Assembly (NCBI RefSeq): GCF_022049065.2
Contig: NZ_CP095745.1
Coordinates: 169,973 to 233,972 of the forward strand
From: Niallia sp. Man26
GTDB lineage: Bacteria; Bacillota; Bacilli; Bacillales; Cytobacillaceae
DNA length: 64,000 nucleotides
Direction of reading: 5' to 3'
Shown here: positions 237-14,670 of the stretch, piece after piece
How positions within the stretch are numbered: the stretch's first letter is position 1
How the letters are laid out: the number at the start of each line of letters is the position of its first letter
Program-made: the position numbers and the translations under genes
Notes under the pieces: generated by a model
Told to the model about the DNA's origin: nothing
The model's database searches: none
Seen by the model: only the letters and a program-made list of their open reading frames with translations

Positions 237-2192
237 TTGAAAAGTTTAGATTCTTCTAGTTTGCAAGATACAATGGAAGAAAGAGCAAACCATTATAAAA
301 ATCTACGAGAGCAATTTATTCAATTAAAAACGAGATTCAGTGAAATAGTTGATTTAGAAGACTTCGAAGGTCAAGGTGCTGAAGCGATAAAGAGTTTTTA
401 TCAAGGGCAAATGGATGTGATAGAAGCCTGGCAACGGCTTGTAGATAGGCAAATAGCTTTTTTCGGGGGAGTTTCCGGTAAACTGCAAGATAAAGAGCTG
501 GGAGGCAATACAAGGGTTGAAACAAACTTCTTAGAGGACGACCTAGCTCAAAAAGAAAGACTAGCCGATGATATGGTTACAGAACAAAAGAAGGCTTTAG
601 ATGATATATTCCGAGAGATAGACGATTTAGTTTCTTTAAATTCATTCTCACGCTCCCAATTCGATGACCTAATGATGGACGTTAATAAAAAAAGAACGGA
701 TACATTAAAGGTCATTAATGAAGTAGACCAAGAACTGCAAGAAGAATATAATTCTTCTGAGGGAGAAGAGGGCTATGTTATCCAATTGTTTAGCGCTTTA
801 TTAGAAGCGACTAAGCAGGGTGATAGTATTACACCAATAAATTTTAATGCTGAGGCTTTTCATGCTAGTGAGGCTTACCAAGTTAAATCTGAAGCAGAAG
901 ATATTACAACTGGTTATCTTACATATAAAAAAGAAGAAAAAGAAGCAAGAGAAATAGAGAATCGTCCTTGGTATGAGGATTTATGGGAAGGGACCAAAAC
1001 GTTTGCTGGTGAGTTTAGTGGATATTATGATTATCTTAGAGCCACGGAAGGTGTAGATCCTGTAACTGGAGAAAAGCTTTCTACTACGCAAAGAGTAACT
1101 GCAGGGGCAATGGCATTAGCTGGCTTTATCCCTGTTGTTGGTTGGGCAGGAAGAGCAGTTAAAGGTGGTAAAGGTATCTATTCCGCTACGAGAGGAATAA
1201 GTGCTGCCGAACATGCTATGAGTGCCTATAAGAATGTCCATACATTTTCTGCATTAGAAAAAACGGAGATGGGTATCTATGGCCTTATATCTGCCAATGG
1301 TTTATCTGAATACCTAACAGGTAAAGACATGCTTGGTAATGAACTAACAGAAGAACAGCGGAATGCAAGCCTTGCACAAGGTATTTTTGCTGGGATGCCA
1401 TTTGTACCAAGTATAGCAAGGGAAGCTACTAGATTGGGAAAACAAGCAGTAAATGCGTCTGTACAGATAGGAAAACAAGGTAGCGAGATTTCCCGAGCAT
1501 GGCTAGACAACCTAAGTGATCAATTAAATAACTTTGGTCCACAGTTAAGTGCTGCTGGAGTTAATCATAATGTAAATCGTATTCTTCCTAGTGACAGAAA
1601 ACTAAATACCTCCAATGATAAATCAAAAGAACAACTTTTGAGTATGATTTCGGATCGAAGTAGTGGTGTTAGTAGAAGTTCAATAAAGATTGGGACTGAA
1701 GATATTTCTGCATTAAGGGGAAAATGGAATGTTCCTAAAACAGAAACAGTGGCTGTAGGTAAAACAGACGTGGAAGGATTAGAACATTTAACTTTTGTTG
1801 GGGGTTCTCCGAAGGTTAGAAAAGAAGCAGATCTTCCTGATTTAGATGAAGCCATGCCTAATAGAAATATAAAGGCACCTAGCAATAATCCGCTCTTTAC
1901 AAGACATGCAGAAGAAGGAGTTCTTAATGAGTTTGATGCCGCTGTTATGCAGAAGGGATTGAACCCAGAAGAAGTTACAGGTACATTAAGATTACATCAG
2001 TCTAATCCATCTGGTGTTTGTAGGAAGTGTTATCAAGGATTAGCTAATGATAAAGTACCCGCTGGCGTTTTAAAACAATTGAGTCAGCGCTATCCTAATT
2101 TAACCATTATAGTTACTTCTGAAACTAATGAAGCTGTTAAGGTTACAGGTAGGTTAGAATTAAATATTAGAAACGGAAAATATATAGAATAG
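237..2192 (+). CDS. LXG-domain polymorphic toxin with C-terminal HAE/CxxC deaminase domain
   Basis: This 651-residue protein has the architecture of type VII (Esx)-secreted LXG toxins. Residues 1 to about 200 form the helical LXG-type region. Residues about 270-390 hold a hydrophobic pre-toxin TG-like segment (around GAMALAGFIPVVGW). The last ~100 residues form the toxin. That tip has H557-A-E559 and, after an N-P-S-G motif, C595 and C598; these are the zinc ligands and catalytic glutamate expected of the cytidine-deaminase fold. The HAE...NPxGxCxxC order recalls DddA-like (SCP1.201) and BURPS668_1122-type toxin deaminases, but the 38-residue H-to-C spacing is longer than in DddA. The substrate (DNA, RNA or nucleotide) cannot be read from sequence. 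A TTG start follows a good ribosome binding site. The next gene, 22 bases downstream, is the likely immunity gene. Confidence 0.85.
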   Translation: MKSLDSSSLQDTMEERANHYKNLREQFIQLKTRFSEIVDLEDFEGQGAEAIKSFYQGQMDVIEAWQRLVDRQIAFFGGVSGKLQDKELGGNTRVETNFLEDDLAQKERLADDMVTEQKKALDDIFREIDDLVSLNSFSRSQFDDLMMDVNKKRTDTLKVINEVDQELQEEYNSSEGEEGYVIQLFSALLEATKQGDSITPINFNAEAFHASEAYQVKSEAEDITTGYLTYKKEEKEAREIENRPWYEDLWEGTKTFAGEFSGYYDYLRATEGVDPVTGEKLSTTQRVTAGAMALAGFIPVVGWAGRAVKGGKGIYSATRGISAAEHAMSAYKNVHTFSALEKTEMGIYGLISANGLSEYLTGKDMLGNELTEEQRNASLAQGIFAGMPFVPSIAREATRLGKQAVNASVQIGKQGSEISRAWLDNLSDQLNNFGPQLSAAGVNHNVNRILPSDRKLNTSNDKSKEQLLSMISDRSSGVSRSSIKIGTEDISALRGKWNVPKTETVAVGKTDVEGLEHLTFVGGSPKVRKEADLPDLDEAMPNRNIKAPSNNPLFTRHAEEGVLNEFDAAVMQKGLNPEEVTGTLRLHQSNPSGVCRKCYQGLANDKVPAGVLKQLSQRYPNLTIIVTSETNEAVKVTGRLELNIRNGKYIE

Positions 2193-2214
2193 AGAGATTA
2201 ATAGGAGGGATATT

Positions 2215-2676
2215 ATGGAAGAACATACATTTAGCCATTTAACAGATGAAGGAAAAGTACTCTTTTTTATTCTGCTTTCAAAAGAAATTTTAAGCGACTT
2301 TACACAAGTTGAAGATAGACAGCTAGCACAAAATGCTCTTTCAAAAAGTTTGGAATGGGTTAAAAACAAAGAAGAAATTGGTTACGAACTTTATGATTTG
2401 TTGGATGATGAAGAGAATGGAATCACAATTATTCAAGAGATGTCCGAAAATGAGAAAGATATCGCTGCATGGAATTGTATTATTGACACAGTTGCTTATA
2501 CAAGTCGAAAAGCAATGGAAATGGAGGGTGTAGAATACTTTCCAGAACCAATTGCTCTAGTAGATGATACATTAGTGGAACATTTTATTAGTTCTATTGA
2601 ACAAGTTAAAGGTGATTCTACTCTCCTAATAAAGAATACATACGAGCAACTTTTCTCAAACTTAGATAAAGCATAA
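2215..2676 (+). CDS. Probable immunity protein for the LXG deaminase toxin (Imm6-like)
   Basis: This 153-residue, acidic and probably all-helical protein has no signal peptide or membrane segment, as expected of a cytoplasmic immunity protein. It starts 22 bases after the toxin stop, with GGAGGG 6 bases ahead of the ATG, so the two genes are one operon. The composition and the internal 'AAWNCIIDTVAYTSR' region resemble the Imm6 family found beside polymorphic toxins, but that family match is from memory. The position supports the immunity role more strongly than the sequence does. A hairpin terminator follows the gene. Confidence 0.6.
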   Translation: MEEHTFSHLTDEGKVLFFILLSKEILSDFTQVEDRQLAQNALSKSLEWVKNKEEIGYELYDLLDDEENGITIIQEMSENEKDIAAWNCIIDTVAYTSRKAMEMEGVEYFPEPIALVDDTLVEHFISSIEQVKGDSTLLIKNTYEQLFSNLDKA

Positions 2677-2709: not shown

Positions 2710-2745
2710 GATGCCGATATCATTGGATGTTGGCATTTTTTAAAT
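2710..2745 (+). terminator. Terminator of the toxin-immunity operon
   Basis: ATGCC and GGCAT arms with a short imperfect stem between them are followed by a run of T residues, 30 bases after the immunity gene. Confidence 0.5.
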
Positions 2746-3044: not shown

Positions 3045-3326
3045 ATGAAGCTGTATTTTAAAGAAGAATATCTAGGTGATATACAGAATGCAAATAGAGA
3101 AGGCCCTTGGGTATATGGGACATTCAAACCGAAAGAGAACATTGAAAAGTATAAAATATTTTTAGAGGCCTTAACGAATGAAGACCATAAGTTTGAAGAA
3201 GAACAATTTGATGCAGAATGGTTAGATAAAAGGAACTGGTTTATTACCGATGACCAGGGGAATAGAGAAGGAATTGAAATTCCTGCTGTTTATCCAGATG
3301 GGGATATTAATTGGCGTTGGAGATAA
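3045..3326 (+). CDS. Small acidic hypothetical protein, possible orphan immunity protein
   Basis: This 93-residue soluble protein starts at an ATG with GGAGGGG about 6 bases upstream. It is acidic and rich in aromatic residues (W, Y, F) and has no signal peptide or membrane segment. I do not recognise the family. Its size, composition and position behind a toxin-immunity pair and a decayed gene fit an orphan immunity protein, but nothing in the sequence proves that. A weak hairpin, AGAGCTGCTATTTGTGGCTTTTTT, split as stem and T-run, follows at about 3343-3370. Confidence 0.5.
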   Translation: MKLYFKEEYLGDIQNANREGPWVYGTFKPKENIEKYKIFLEALTNEDHKFEEEQFDAEWLDKRNWFITDDQGNREGIEIPAVYPDGDINWRWR

Positions 3327-6625: not shown

Positions 6626-8245
6626 TCATTCAAAAAATTCTTTTACTTGGTGGTACATATAATTTTTATTTAACCAGAGGGCTTGTTTTACCATATAATT
6701 ATCTGTCAAAATATCTTTCATATCCTCTGGTCTTTCTTTCCAATTTGCAGGAGATGGTAGCCGATCTGAATTTTTACTTTCAAAATAGTCCGACTCGACA
6801 GCTGAAGGTCGAATGTGAAGAATTTGAGGACCACTCACTTGGCTCGGCAGATTATTCTCTATTTGGTAACCCTTCTTACTCTTAACACGTTTATACGTTA
6901 ACTCGACACCATTAATGAGTGTTTGTTTAATAGTTTCCCATGTTTTTTTGACGGTACCCATGAGGTCGTCTTCTGGCATATACCAAAATTTCGCACCCTT
7001 GAATATCTCTCCTTCTGGTGTTTCCTCGTAAACAACTAATAAGAATTTTGTTGTGGAAAGGTAGTCATACACTCGGGTATCTTCCCAGTCTAGCATACTA
7101 ATATCTTTAATGAAGCTAACATTCGATTCAAGTTTAAATCCTTCAGTTGTGATTCTTTTTTCGGATGGTTTTTTTCTCTGATTAGCATTGACGGTAACTA
7201 TTTTTACAGCAATTCCAGCTTTCTTAAACTCATCTGTTTCTTCTAAATCACCTGTTAGATTAAACATCTTCTGAGCAATTAGCCTTGAACTTGCTTTGTC
7301 ATTCTTTTCCTTAATTTTTACACCAAATTTTTCTGCTAAGACTTTTTTATCCATATTGTAAAACGGTTTAAACTGATCGAGAATGATTTGTTCAAACGTT
7401 TTATGTTTTAACTCAGATAAATCTTTTATGATATGCTCTTGAGGACCAATTTGCTTAGCATCGATGGTTTTATGTAATTCAGGATAGTCATCTTGATAAG
7501 AAGAGTAAGTAATTGAACTCTTTAATTCGCCCTGTACAATTCGTTTTGTAATTTCCTTCATGTACGATGGCCTTAAAGAAAAGGCTCTTCTATGTGCCTT
7601 CTTATCACTAAAAGGTTGTTTTGTTTGATTCTCTTCACTTTTACTTCCTTTTGTCACTGCGCCAAGGTATTGAGTCATGCCTTCGGAAATATCCTCAGCT
7701 TTTCCCTGACGAATCATATCCATTATAATGTTCCAATCATTTTCAATGATTGCCCAATCATCATCTAATAAATCGTTCAAATTAAAAAGAATTGCGTGAG
7801 TCATTAAGAAATCTGGATAGATTGGGTATTCTTTTCCTTCAAATTGATAAAAGTTAACTGGATCATATTTATACAACAGGAGTTCTATAAGCTTTGATTT
7901 CTTTAAAAAAGAAGAATTTCGAAACTCTCTCTTGTATTCTTCATTGTAATCAAAAATGTTAAGAACTAGTCTTTCTTTGGCCCCCCAGGAGTTTTCTTTT
8001 TTGAAAAATTTGAGCCCCGCACATTTGAGCTCTACACCTAGATTATTGAAATCTGCCTCAGGTCGACTGTTATTCGCTAGCCCGAACCAATCTTTTTCAA
8101 CAGCATTTCCAAGCCAACCTTTATTTCTTGGGCTAGCGTACCACTTATTGACATTCTCTTGTGTGACAAGCTCCTTTATCATTTTACCAACAGCAGCTTC
8201 ACCACGTTCTTTTATTTCTCGAATTGTTTTATATTCTCTATCCAT
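6626..8245 (-). CDS. Sau3AI-like type II restriction endonuclease
   Basis: The protein (539 residues from the preferred start) resembles Sau3AI, which cuts at GATC and is built from two MutH-like domains. The N-terminal domain shows the catalytic D...ExK pattern: PEADFNNLGVELKCAG near residue 60-75, with E-L-K as the metal site. The C-terminal half corresponds to the allosteric domain. The start at 8245 is chosen because AAGGAG sits 6 bases ahead of that ATG; starts at 8251 and 8290 are also in frame but worse placed. It is transcribed away from the regulator and methyltransferase. The cut site GATC is inferred from the family. Confidence 0.8.
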   Translation of the reverse strand: MDREYKTIREIKERGEAAVGKMIKELVTQENVNKWYASPRNKGWLGNAVEKDWFGLANNSRPEADFNNLGVELKCAGLKFFKKENSWGAKERLVLNIFDYNEEYKREFRNSSFLKKSKLIELLLYKYDPVNFYQFEGKEYPIYPDFLMTHAILFNLNDLLDDDWAIIENDWNIIMDMIRQGKAEDISEGMTQYLGAVTKGSKSEENQTKQPFSDKKAHRRAFSLRPSYMKEITKRIVQGELKSSITYSSYQDDYPELHKTIDAKQIGPQEHIIKDLSELKHKTFEQIILDQFKPFYNMDKKVLAEKFGVKIKEKNDKASSRLIAQKMFNLTGDLEETDEFKKAGIAVKIVTVNANQRKKPSEKRITTEGFKLESNVSFIKDISMLDWEDTRVYDYLSTTKFLLVVYEETPEGEIFKGAKFWYMPEDDLMGTVKKTWETIKQTLINGVELTYKRVKSKKGYQIENNLPSQVSGPQILHIRPSAVESDYFESKNSDRLPSPANWKERPEDMKDILTDNYMVKQALWLNKNYMYHQVKEFFE

Positions 8246-8301
8246 TGCCATCTCCTTAATAGAAAAACTTAATCTACGGTGCAAATTCATTATAAAATAC
8301 C

Positions 8302-8355
8302 TTCAACTTTTTGTCTGTATAGGTTATAATAATTCAATGATACGATATCCCGTAT
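8302..8355 (+). promoter_or_regulatory. Promoter and candidate operator between the divergent R and C/M genes
   Basis: TTCAAC at 8302-8307 and TATAAT at 8325-8330, 17 bases apart, form a promoter for the regulator-methyltransferase operon. Just downstream, ATACG (8340-8344) and CGTAT (8351-8355) form an inverted repeat with a 6-base spacer, between the promoter and the ribosome binding site. That is a sensible operator for the HTH protein encoded next. The operator role is inferred. Confidence 0.45.
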
Positions 8356-8376
8356 TTTTTAAGGGGAGTAAAAGCT

Positions 8377-8595
8377 ATGATTAAACTACGCTTGAATGAA
8401 ATTCTCAAAGAGAGAGAAATGCGCCAAAAGGACTTAGCAAAAGCTAGTGGGCTTCGTGAAAGTTCTATTAGCGATATGGTTCGAGGCATCCGTACTACGG
8501 TAAATTTAGAACAACTCGAGAAGGTGATGGACTGTTTGGAAATTACCGATTACAACGAAATCTTTGAGAAAGTTGAGGAAAAAGTGAATGTCTAA
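8377..8595 (+). CDS. Small Cro/CI-type HTH regulator of the restriction-modification system
   Basis: The 72-residue protein is almost wholly a helix-turn-helix domain (MRQKDLAKASGLRESSISDM). It has the size and place of controller (C) proteins that time restriction and methyltransferase expression. GGGGAG is 8 bases ahead of its ATG, and its end overlaps the methyltransferase start by 8 bases, so the two are translationally coupled. It probably binds the inverted repeat at 8340-8355 and controls the divergent endonuclease gene; this is inferred from position. Confidence 0.75.
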   Translation: MIKLRLNEILKEREMRQKDLAKASGLRESSISDMVRGIRTTVNLEQLEKVMDCLEITDYNEIFEKVEEKVNV

Positions 8596-9982
8596 ATATA
8601 AAGTATTTTCAATGTTTGACGGGGTTGGGGGCTTCGTGGTAGGTCTTGATAACGCAAACTTAACACTCAAAGAAACGTTCTTTGAAACAACAAACACTAA
8701 TCAATTTGAACCATCTCGTAAATCACAAGATGCCTTTGAAGTAGGTGTCTATAATTATCCGCATGTTCATCACAGTAATGTTGATATCATGCAGGTTCCA
8801 AATGAATATTTCGAGGAAATGAAAGATCAGGGTGTAAACATGATAGTTGGTGGATTCCCTTGCCAAGACTATTCTGTTGCTCGTTCTAAAAAACATGAAT
8901 TGGGTATCCAAGGGAAAAAAGGTGTTCTCTTTTGGGAAATTATTCGTGCGGTTAACCATATGAAACCTGAATATTTGATTTTAGAAAACGTTGATCGTTT
9001 ACTAAAATCACCATCTTCACAACGTGGACGAGACTTTGCAATTATGCTTGGGGCATTTGCTCAACTTGGTTACTCTGTTGAATGGCGTGTGATTAACGCT
9101 GCTGATTATGGACGAGCTCAACGCCGTCGCCGTGTTTTCTTTTACGTGTATCGAAATGACACACCATTTGCCTTGGCAATGGATGCAAAGTATGGAAAAC
9201 CTGAGAAAGAGCATAATGACATAACATTTGATGAAGCGACTTTTGATAACTACATCTTCCAAGATGGGTTGTTCGCCCGTCAATTTCCAATTGAACAAGA
9301 TGCATACAAGAAACGTCACTACTCAGATACATTGTCTATTAAGGACATTCTCAACGAAGAGTACATCGTAGACATTTCTGACAATTTCACAGGTACTATT
9401 TGGAATACTGGTATTATGCGTTACGGCCAATACTTCACGATAGATACGGAACCAGTTAAGGAAGCACCAAAAACATTGGGGGAAATTGTTCAGGAAGCGA
9501 AAGAATATTATGTCCATAAAAATGGAGAAGAAGCGTACAACCAATATATTGCAAAATATCAGTTTGACGATGAAGACCAAAAGCTTAAGAAATTTGAATA
9601 CTTACGTGGTCCTAAAAAAATTGAGCGAGTAGCTGAAAATGGCCATAAATATACTTTTAGTGAAGGTGGGATGAGTCCGTATGATTCTCTTGACTTGCCG
9701 GGACGTACAATGCTTACAAGTGAAGGTTCTGTAAACCGATCAACACATTTGCTTAAAGTCGATGGAAGATACCGACTGCTCACACCGATTGAAGCTGAAT
9801 TATTGCAAGATTTCCCACCAGACTGGACAAAGCTCAAGAAAGATAGTCTTGGAAATGTTCATGAGGTTTCAGACCGTATGCGTTTGTTCTTCATGGGAAA
9901 TGCCTTAGTTACAGGAATTGTTGAACGTATAGGTATTGAGTTAGGAGAAATCGTACGAGAGTATAGTACAGTAGAAGTTTAA
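8588..9982 (+). CDS. DNA (cytosine-5-)-methyltransferase of the Sau3AI-like system
   Basis: This 464-residue protein has the C5-methyltransferase motifs in order: motif I FSMFDGVGGF near residue 7, motif IV GGFPCQDYS with the catalytic Cys near residue 95, motif VI ENVDRL, motif VIII QRRRR, and C-terminal motifs IX and X (LLTPIEAELLQDFPPDW..., FMGNALV). Together with the adjacent Sau3AI-like nuclease it would protect GATC by methylating its cytosine. Codon use is richer in C/G than the surroundings (for example repeated CGT and GGT codons), which suggests the system was acquired by transfer. Confidence 0.9.
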   Translation: MSKYKVFSMFDGVGGFVVGLDNANLTLKETFFETTNTNQFEPSRKSQDAFEVGVYNYPHVHHSNVDIMQVPNEYFEEMKDQGVNMIVGGFPCQDYSVARSKKHELGIQGKKGVLFWEIIRAVNHMKPEYLILENVDRLLKSPSSQRGRDFAIMLGAFAQLGYSVEWRVINAADYGRAQRRRRVFFYVYRNDTPFALAMDAKYGKPEKEHNDITFDEATFDNYIFQDGLFARQFPIEQDAYKKRHYSDTLSIKDILNEEYIVDISDNFTGTIWNTGIMRYGQYFTIDTEPVKEAPKTLGEIVQEAKEYYVHKNGEEAYNQYIAKYQFDDEDQKLKKFEYLRGPKKIERVAENGHKYTFSEGGMSPYDSLDLPGRTMLTSEGSVNRSTHLLKVDGRYRLLTPIEAELLQDFPPDWTKLKKDSLGNVHEVSDRMRLFFMGNALVTGIVERIGIELGEIVREYSTVEV

Positions 9983-12501: not shown

Positions 12502-14670
12502 GTGGAAAACAATACTATGAAAAAGGTATTCTGTTACGGACTAATTTTTTCCTTAATATTATTATTATTACCTCATCAATCATTGGCAGATAATAAGATT
12601 GAGAATACAATTAAGTATATTCCTAATAAAGATAATTTATTAACAGGGGCTATTGAACAAGAAGGGCAAATTAATACTTATGAAATAACTCCTACGTCAA
12701 GTGGAGACATGGCTATTACTCAGATAGATGATGCTAGGATATGGGCGGTCCTTTATGATGAAAATATGAATTCTATGGATATGATTCGCGATCCTTCTGT
12801 TTTTCAAGTTGAAAAAGGACATCGTTACTACTTAAAGGTCAAAATGTTAATTAATATCCCTGAAAAGACGAGTAATTACCAATTTAAAGTTATTATGCCT
12901 AATGATAATCCAAGTTGGGACGAATGGAATGAACCTAATGACACTAATGGTTTAGCTTACCCTCTCCAAAGCGGGAAGGAAGCTGCGAGTAAGTTAGAGT
13001 ATAAAGGTGATCGTAATATATATAAGATTAACGTCACAAAGGAAGGACAAATTTTTGGAACAGTATCAAATGAAAAACCATTTATTCAAGTGTATGATAG
13101 TACCGGGAAAAATGTAACTTGGAGGATGGGACATAATCCTGATGGACAATATATAGAGCCATTTGCTTGGGTAACTCCTGGAATTTATTATATAACTGTT
13201 GGATCTCCCACAGATGAACTGGAATCCTATAATATAAAGTTCACTTATCCTACAGATGTTAAAGTAGAGCAAGACGTGTTCGGTGAACCAAATGATGTTT
13301 TACAAGAAGCAAAACTTATAGAGCCAGATAAGATGTATAATTTTAAATTTGAAGATGAATTTGATGTTGACTGGTATAAGTTTGTTTTAACAGAACCTAA
13401 AAAAGTAGCTTTTGAGGGCAACCATGACCAATTAGATATTGGTATTATTAAGGGATTGAATGAACAAGGTGAATTTATAGAAGAAATATATGGAGAATCC
13501 AAAATAGGAAAAGATAAATTCCAGCAAACTTCTGATGTGTTACAACCTGGAACCTACTATTTTAAAGTTTATAGATACAATAGTTGGGGAGGACAGGAAA
13601 AAAGTCTAAAGAAAGGTAACTACACATTAAAACTAACTTACGTATCTCCTAATGATGTTAATACTATAGACTTGCCCTTAGAACAACCATTTACATCTAC
13701 AATAGATTATTCTTTTGACAAAGATGGTTATTATTATCATGATCCTAATTTTACTGGAGTAATGCAAATACGTATAAAGTCAAAAACACCTGTTGATATT
13801 TCAGTATCCAACCCATATGTAAAACCAGTAATCACCAAAGAAGGGGAAGAAACAGTCTATACTTTCTTTGTATGGAAACAAGAAAGGTATGCTATTGTGG
13901 TCTCCTCTCCAAAAGGTGAGTATGGGGACACAGCAACTTATACATTCACTGCAACTAGAAAAGAAAAAACTACCGGACCTGAGATAAGTGGAGTACAAGA
14001 CGTTTCTATTCCGATGGGAGGGTCTTTTGACGCTAAAGAGGGTGTCACAGCCTTTGATATTTCAGAAGGTAACCTAACCAGATGGATTGACATAAGTGGA
14101 GAAGTTGATGTTAAAATGCCTGGTACTTATAAAATAATATATTCAGCGCAAGACAGTTTTGAAAATAAAACGATAATTACTAGAAAAATTACTGTTTATG
14201 ATAATGTGAGACCTGTTCTACGTGGGGTCAAAGATAAAACAATCAATATTAATTCTAAATTTGATCCAAAAGAGGGAGTATCTGCAGAAGATAATATAGA
14301 TGGGAATATCTCTAAAAATATTATAGTCACTGGAAAAGTAAACACTAAGGTTAAAGGAGTTTATACTCTTACTTATAGTATAAAAGACAACAAGGGTAAT
14401 ACTTCCAAGCTTACACGTAAAGTAACTGTAAGAGATAATGTTAAGCCAGTAATATCAGGAGCGAACAACAAAACAATTAAAAAACACTCCTCATTTAACC
14501 CCCAAAAAGGAGTTACAGCGAAAGATAATGTAGACGGTAATTTGACCAAAAACATTAAAATAACTGGTATAGTGAATACGAATAGGAAGGGGAGTTACAC
14601 AGTAACATACTCTGTTATTGACAAGTCAGGAAATAAAACTACTGTAAAAAGAAAGATAACAGTAAAATAG
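12502..14670 (+). CDS. Secreted surface protein with PPC-like and DUF5011 Ig-like repeats
   Basis: This 722-residue protein carries a signal peptide (the run beginning MKKVFCYG, cleavage near SLADN). Two pre-peptidase C-like regions each contain an E-P-N-D motif (about residues 145-245 and 262-380). The C terminus holds three tandem Ig-like DUF5011 repeats of about 75 residues, starting near residues 493, 568 and 645, each with the pattern PxIsGxxdxxI...F...GVxAxDnxdGnlTk. There is no LPXTG sorting signal and no catalytic domain, so it is probably a cell-wall-associated adhesin or matrix protein. The GTG at 12502 or the ATG at 12517 could be the start; neither has a strong ribosome binding site. 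Confidence 0.75.
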   Translation: MENNTMKKVFCYGLIFSLILLLLPHQSLADNKIENTIKYIPNKDNLLTGAIEQEGQINTYEITPTSSGDMAITQIDDARIWAVLYDENMNSMDMIRDPSVFQVEKGHRYYLKVKMLINIPEKTSNYQFKVIMPNDNPSWDEWNEPNDTNGLAYPLQSGKEAASKLEYKGDRNIYKINVTKEGQIFGTVSNEKPFIQVYDSTGKNVTWRMGHNPDGQYIEPFAWVTPGIYYITVGSPTDELESYNIKFTYPTDVKVEQDVFGEPNDVLQEAKLIEPDKMYNFKFEDEFDVDWYKFVLTEPKKVAFEGNHDQLDIGIIKGLNEQGEFIEEIYGESKIGKDKFQQTSDVLQPGTYYFKVYRYNSWGGQEKSLKKGNYTLKLTYVSPNDVNTIDLPLEQPFTSTIDYSFDKDGYYYHDPNFTGVMQIRIKSKTPVDISVSNPYVKPVITKEGEETVYTFFVWKQERYAIVVSSPKGEYGDTATYTFTATRKEKTTGPEISGVQDVSIPMGGSFDAKEGVTAFDISEGNLTRWIDISGEVDVKMPGTYKIIYSAQDSFENKTIITRKITVYDNVRPVLRGVKDKTININSKFDPKEGVSAEDNIDGNISKNIIVTGKVNTKVKGVYTLTYSIKDNKGNTSKLTRKVTVRDNVKPVISGANNKTIKKHSSFNPQKGVTAKDNVDGNLTKNIKITGIVNTNRKGSYTVTYSVIDKSGNKTTVKRKITVK

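Follow-up and report, generated by a model that had tools for sequence, protein, structure and literature searches.

What does the C-terminal tip of an LXG toxin from Niallia sp. Man26 do, and is the gene that follows the toxin its antidote? The locus lies in a window of 64,000 nucleotides (the whole stretch of DNA analysed here), which forms the end of contig C3 (233,972 bases) in a 5.7-Mb genome. The original prediction had described an LXG toxin with a deaminase-like tip and a plausible immunity gene behind it, and both reading frames were found as described. We conclude, with a probability of about 0.72, that the locus is a two-gene interbacterial toxin-immunity pair with a deaminase-type tip, which is likely a cytosine deaminase acting in nucleic acid. 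The parts of the locus are as follows.

237..2192, + strand: open reading frame of the LXG polymorphic toxin, 651 aa, TTG start
240..833, + strand: LXG domain, residues 2-199 (PF04740 of Pfam, E=1.5e-37)
975..1172, + strand: PT-TG pre-toxin domain, residues 247-312 (PF14449 of Pfam, E=1.1e-19)
1689..2189, + strand: predicted deaminase-type toxin domain, about residues 485-651 (conserved columns, PF14424 profile match and breakpoints against the LXG genes of the same genome)
1905..1913, + strand: H557-A-E559, predicted zinc ligand and proton-shuttle glutamate (conservation; putative roles)
2019..2030, + strand: C595-R-K-C598, predicted zinc ligands (conservation; putative role)
2034..2063, + strand: insert of about 10 residues (roughly 600-609) after CxxC, a gap in hhalign against PF14424 (limits approximate)
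2215..2676, + strand: open reading frame of the Imm6 family immunity protein, 153 aa, ATG start (PF14434)
2710..2737, + strand: terminator-like hairpin 3' of the toxin/Imm6 pair, with its position as the sole argument

The N-terminal PF04740 domain places the 651-residue protein among the LXG toxins, in agreement with the LXG body originally claimed. Upstream of its TTG start, the stretch AGGAGAGG resembles a ribosome site by eye, and the Imm6 frame starts 22 bases past the toxin stop codon. The hairpin scan found one hairpin, compared with a mean of 1.5 in shuffles. The codons of the four motif residues occupy 1905-1907 (H557), 1911-1913 (E559), 2019-2021 (C595) and 2028-2030 (C598). Proteins with a tip 98-99% identical to that of the window toxin bear the name Niallia taxi. 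When 12 kb of the window were compared with plasmids, one record matched, over 5%. Elsewhere in the window, not far from the toxin locus, the genes at 6626-9982 probably form a restriction-modification system; they encode a MutH-type nuclease (E=4.4e-18), a C5 cytosine methylase (E=4.3e-51) and a Cro-type regulator. The product of 12502-14670 has repeats of the bacterial surface Ig-like type (E=1.7e-51).

For delivery, the genome has a cluster encoding WXG100, YukD, YukC (E=6.1e-114) and FtsK/SpoIIIE ATPase proteins, together with YwqH-like and DUF5344 proteins and another LXG toxin, and it holds four LXG genes in all. The T7SSb genes looked for in the same genome as an LXG toxin are thus present. 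Upstream of the window toxin itself, no small LXG partner genes were recognised by eye. We infer that the type VII system of this genome exports the window toxin.

Next, we collected relatives of the tip. With residues 530-651 as query, 151 relatives were obtained at E<=0.01; a profile search returned 103 short proteins, and the divergent, eCIS-borne member L034 as query returned 8. The 252 sequences with the domain were reduced to 212 covering both motifs and to 56 after clustering at 80% identity. In these 56 non-redundant relatives the glutamate column is always E and both CxxC columns are always C, while the histidine column has H in 54 and N in the other 2. HAE followed by CxxC was observed in 53 of the 56, the remaining three having NAE (two) or HSE (one), and the positions after the cysteines are G in 56, Q in 53, S in 56, Y in 48 and P in 53. 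The motifs are conserved more than chance. A conserved H/C/D-x-E plus a conserved CxxC, the motif set of the zinc-dependent deaminase superfamily, is therefore present, and the HAE/CxxC tip of the original prediction was borne out, with the residue roles as putative assignments. Three proteins (L033, P0199 and P0203) have NAE in place of HAE and keep the E and CxxC; the change hits the presumed zinc ligand. The offset from H to C, read originally as 38 residues, is indeed 38 in the window toxin, and of the 53 relatives 32 have 38, 13 have 39, 5 have 37 and 3 have other values. This spacing is a trait of the tip family.

The domain had been placed at about residues 540-651, and this limit has to be moved, since it starts near residue 485. 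In the extended alignment, made from the 38 of the 56 clustered sequences with enough upstream sequence, the consensus ahead of the motifs is approximately 'TiAvgkTdvpGLe...FeGgSP', and near-invariant columns reach R494, T504, T510 and G514 (27 frames). The three other LXG toxins of the same genome share 62-65% BLASTP identity with the window toxin, ending at its residues 483, 486 and 449. Because the conserved columns reach about 485 and the similarity to the LXG toxins of the same genome stops at these points, the exchanged unit spans about residues 485-651.

A deaminase label from Pfam was found on none of the 231 relatives listed (the best 120 of the 151, plus the 103 and the 8). Most of these are nameless, and the named ones are called hypothetical protein or carry whole-protein names of the LXG, YeeF or YwqJ type; names seen once include ADP-ribosyltransferase (P0030), toxin YxiD (P0210) and eCIS core. 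Scanning species genomes revealed 27 tip loci, by their titles from Bacillota, Pseudomonadota, Actinomycetota and Bacteroidota, and a scan of plasmids added three places, in Treponema, Paracoccus and Oscillatoria; the phages searched with the tip gave no match. The family was thus found in six phyla, namely these four, Spirochaetota (where the copy is a remnant) and Cyanobacteriota, and 30 loci with the tip were fetched (L005-L034). Among 27 frames, several of them cut by contig ends, the carrier domains were PT-TG in 7, LXG in 5 and PT-HINT in 2, with RHS repeats, eCIS core, VENN and DUF637 seen once each; PF05954 is a further carrier among the listed relatives. In two natural frames, P0206 (named Niallia taxi) and L005 (on the Treponema plasmid), part of the tip continues into Imm6, as if a decayed toxin had retained its immunity part.

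Which known family is nearest to the tip was examined with single sequences and with profiles. Searched alone against Pfam and NCBIfam, the window tip gave nothing above cut-off and one Pfam hit at chance level. Across 23 members, PF14424 (BURPS668_1122 deaminases, Toxin-deaminase) gave weak matches in 7, more than any other family, with a best E of 0.051. In individual members some unrelated families equalled or surpassed this (LysR_substrate E=0.017, phage_tail_N E=0.02, BACON E=0.023). The curated PF14424 cut-off of 29.6 bits was reached by no member scanned (L034 scored 14.1 bits), nor did any member scanned pass another curated deaminase cut-off. Among 10 proteins scanned individually, PF14424 matched L007, L026, L033 and L034; the match of L026 covers both motifs (residues 38-108), and those of the other three cover 20 residues close to the C-terminus. 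The divergent member L007 also matched PF00383 (dCMP_cyt_deam_1) weakly, at E=0.042, and the PF14424 member L047 matched APOBEC4_like (E=5.8e-4) and APOBEC1 (E=0.0076), all below cut-off. A profile search of solved structures found no relative, the top hits being LysR-type regulators (E=0.27) through the last helix-strand. A match to subunit E'' of archaeal RNA polymerase (NCBIfam E=0.003; PDB 1ryq E=0.016), over 40-50 residues starting at CxxC, was seen in 1 of 23 members and was set aside.

We compared the tip alignment (56 sequences) with PF14424 by hhalign, using 21 of 30 PF14424 loci after omission of L064 (in-frame stop) and eight loci at <=55.4 bits. The score was 60.2 (probability 96.4), whereas shuffles gave 11.9+-2.0 and none of 100 reached it; the extended domain scored 71.0 (probability 97.2, 124 columns) against 12.6+-2.6 for shuffles (0/60). 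In the match, the E and both C are in register with those of PF14424. The C-terminal part needs care: its last 23 columns alone matched PF14424 with a probability of 97, but LysR regulators also matched this stretch of the tip family, at 50-54 (probability 93-95), and it is therefore unspecific. The deaminase case consequently rests on the part up to CxxC. For this part the short tip scored 25.8 (probability 34), against shuffles of 10.2+-2.3 with a maximum of 19.4 (0/100), and the extended domain scored 39.2 (probability 87.7), against 11.2+-2.1 (0/60). LysR reached 17.0 against the same part of the tip, a value within the range of the shuffled PF14424 (the yardstick used here in place of LysR shuffles), and the PF14424 profile against LysR gave 26.4 (probability 9). 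The LysR genes (L042-L045) are a biased control because they were chosen for matching, having surfaced in a genome search with the tip profile at E of about 1e-4 to 1e-3; Imm6 as a control gave about 10. A sequence-profile relation to a known deaminase family is thus found, with the caveat of the unspecific C-terminal stretch, and PF14424 is the nearest family found for the tip.

The likeness to PF14424 comprises an N-terminal stretch, a predicted helix with the catalytic E, a predicted G-x-hydrophobic strand and CxxC, followed by V-x-x-F/L-x-x-x-Y-P-N-x-x-I. The two differ in that the 21 PF14424 sequences have D-x-E, mostly DTE, where the tip family has HAE, and in the roughly 10 extra residues of the tip family after CxxC. 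In the accessible portions of three papers (PMC10469887, PMC4725963, PMC9424206), PF14424 proteins appear as predictions only.

A zinc-binding toxin of another fold, such as a metal-dependent nuclease, could in principle mimic a deaminase through HAE and CxxC, and it would account for the absence of any curated family cut-off passed. We regard this as very unlikely, as the E and cysteines stand in register with PF14424 and the shuffles fall short of the observed scores, even with the unspecific C-terminal stretch removed. Closeness to DddA, as suggested originally from the motif order, is likewise improbable, though slightly less so. A DddA-like (SCP1.201, PF14428) double-strand DNA cytosine deaminase would have the identical order of motifs, and the NPSG before the tip cysteines presumably resembles DddA as well. 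Yet PF14428 was detected at E<=10 in 0 of 23 members (with HMMER filters discarding most matches above about 0.1), and the 38-residue spacing belongs to the family as a whole. DddA has Phe1375 between its two cysteines, whereas in 21 tips the residues at this place are RK, KK, PT, TA, NT, NK or GG and never Phe. PF14428 sequences for a profile comparison were sought in 249 and in 17 genomes and found in none. Of the two families named originally for a profile check, PF14424 is the nearest one found, with weak matches in single members and a strong one between profiles, and PF14428 matched none of the 23 members. The interpretation of a deaminase-type tip on an LXG body, with an immunity gene and from a less studied clade, is supported; the proposed closeness to DddA is not.

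A YwqJ-clade deaminase, as already named in a 2012 survey, is a different matter; this identity is compatible with the main reading and we hold it to be possible, though doubtful. A table of that survey pairs Imm6 with 'YwqJ deaminases' in actinobacteria and firmicutes, which fits the range seen here (PMC3482391). The relative P0013 is called 'Putative ribonuclease YwqJ' in one source and 'ribonuclease YeeF family' elsewhere (both whole-protein names), and HAE and CxxC align in register with PF14431 (YwqJ) members. Against this, PF14431 was detected at E<=10 in 0 of 23 members, while the positive control L035 gave E=1e-21, and hhalign against PF14431, for which only 2 sequences were available, gave a score within the spread of the shuffles (41 of 100 reached it). 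Moreover, the PF14431 toxins found (L035 and L036) precede, by eye, an open reading frame with YwqK-like repeats, and in G104, the genome of L035, the PF14431 toxin and the single Imm6 gene are about 319 kb apart. The tip might also deaminate free nucleotides or other small molecules instead of nucleic acid. A study on YwqJ, another LXG toxin with a deaminase-like motif, reports that its induction spared the chromosome and rRNA, and its authors proposed small molecules (PMC8321402). This result does not tell editing from small-molecule action, as bases can be edited without breakage of DNA or rRNA; besides, membership of YwqJ in the tip family is not established, and C-to-T mutations arose in E. 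coli DNA through representatives of two further clades of toxin deaminases (PMC7901873). We therefore consider a small-molecule substrate unlikely. It is also conceivable, but again less than probable, that the tips form a separate toxin-deaminase clade in six phyla, missed by the searched models, with a substrate or context new for toxin deaminases; examples would be one particular RNA, or DNA within a novel sequence context, and the residues behind CxxC would help to determine this choice.

The neighbouring gene was assigned to Imm6 by PF14434 (E=7e-20, 71.5 bits, cut-off 25), in line with the immunity role originally suggested for it. In 24 of the 29 loci scanned, the window included, the first downstream frame is Imm6 (E<=0.01); the others comprise one Imm10, in agreement with the annotation of the Oscillatoria record, one LGT (the Aquimarina locus, by its length) and three without Imm6. 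The tip profile at E<=0.001 hit 9 of 193 genomes of the window's family, of which 4 are LysR genes and 5 real tips (one of these genomes holding a remnant with stops). Imm6 occurs in 9 of the 193 genomes, all 5 tip genomes among them (p=6e-8, ignoring shared descent). In Mantel tests, tip and Imm6 distances were correlated with r=0.897 in 21 pairs and with r=0.893 in 16 Bacillota pairs (0/9999 permutations in each, shared descent uncorrected). The 21 pairs are the rows common to row sets A2, which leaves out L005-L007, L011 (near copy), L019 (cut) and L030-L032 (broken or partial), and A3, which leaves out L005 (fused frame) and L022 (contig end), minus L034; row set A4 leaves out L005 and L030-L032. 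One Imm6 motif type goes with 11 CRKC/CKKC tips and another with five Bacillota CPTC tips. The 153-residue Imm6 is likely the cognate immunity protein of the toxin.

The search for Imm6 gave none in phages and two plasmid records. The same genome has three more Imm6 genes, at L097:3521-3961 and L097:2857-3321 (contig C2) and at L096:3821-4165 (contig C1), with no tip of the family among the open reading frames of the surrounding 10-12 kb, and these look like orphan immunity genes. One of them is 80% identical to the window Imm6 and lies beside a 72% identical copy of the window frame 3045-3326. A Niallia taxi record of 1.44 Mb that is listed among plasmids, NZ_CP102590, contains a gene for a protein 85% identical to the window Imm6, with no annotated feature beneath the match; this record may be the counterpart of the 1.35-Mb contig C2, the carrier of two Imm6 genes.

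From its sequence, the locus combines an LXG body, a tip with conserved deaminase-type motifs that is related by profile to PF14424, and an adjacent Imm6 gene, a type of neighbour that the tip also has at other loci. In the toxin-immunity reading that we prefer, the toxin would leave the cell through the type VII system, whose genes lie at another place in the genome, and its tip would enter a neighbouring cell. There, zinc would be bound by H557, C595 and C598, with E559 as the proton shuttle, and the tip would deaminate a base. The most likely target is cytosine in nucleic acid, with DNA somewhat ahead of RNA. Inside producer cells, Imm6 would bind and block the tip. That cytosine deamination of nucleic acid is the likeliest activity follows from analogy with the other toxin clades tested in PMC7901873.

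The kind of system, a polymorphic deaminase toxin with Imm6, is already known, since the survey of Zhang et al. 2012 (PMC3482391) lists Imm6 with 'YwqJ deaminases'. The tips share with that group the Imm6 partner, the occurrence in Firmicutes and Actinobacteria and, in what appears to be the deaminase row of its table, LXG among the carriers (PMC3482391), but the Pfam YwqJ model misses them. The B. subtilis pair YwqJ-YwqK (PMC8321402) is similar in its LXG body, deaminase-like motif and adjoining antidote gene, and differs in its tip and, by eye at the PF14431 loci L035 and L036, in the neighbouring frame. DddA (SCP1.201, PF14428) and SsdA (DYW-like subgroup) are also interbacterial deaminase toxins with an immunity protein, but they belong to other subfamilies, their DNA substrate is demonstrated (PMC7901873), and DddA is delivered by a T6SS. 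In a published account, the Phe1375 of DddA displaces bases and the zinc ligand His1345 contacts the -1 thymine (PMC10442228). What is new for the tip family, relative to the libraries searched, is its model, its limits and its nearest relative. The literature searched, a scope with subscription papers and preprints mostly outside it, gave no description of the activity of the family. Iyer et al. 2011 is reportedly the founding classification of these enzymes.

Deaminase toxins can mutate the survivors of bacterial combat (PMC7901873), and base editors are obtained from them. With its compact size of about 165 aa and no Pfam or NCBIfam model that picks it up, the tip family would escape deaminase screens that set out from database labels, the InterPro-based AlphaFold screen of PMC10847098 being one example. 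The extent of the tip, its likely natural inhibitor and its predicted catalytic residues are now defined well enough for a direct test of its substrate.
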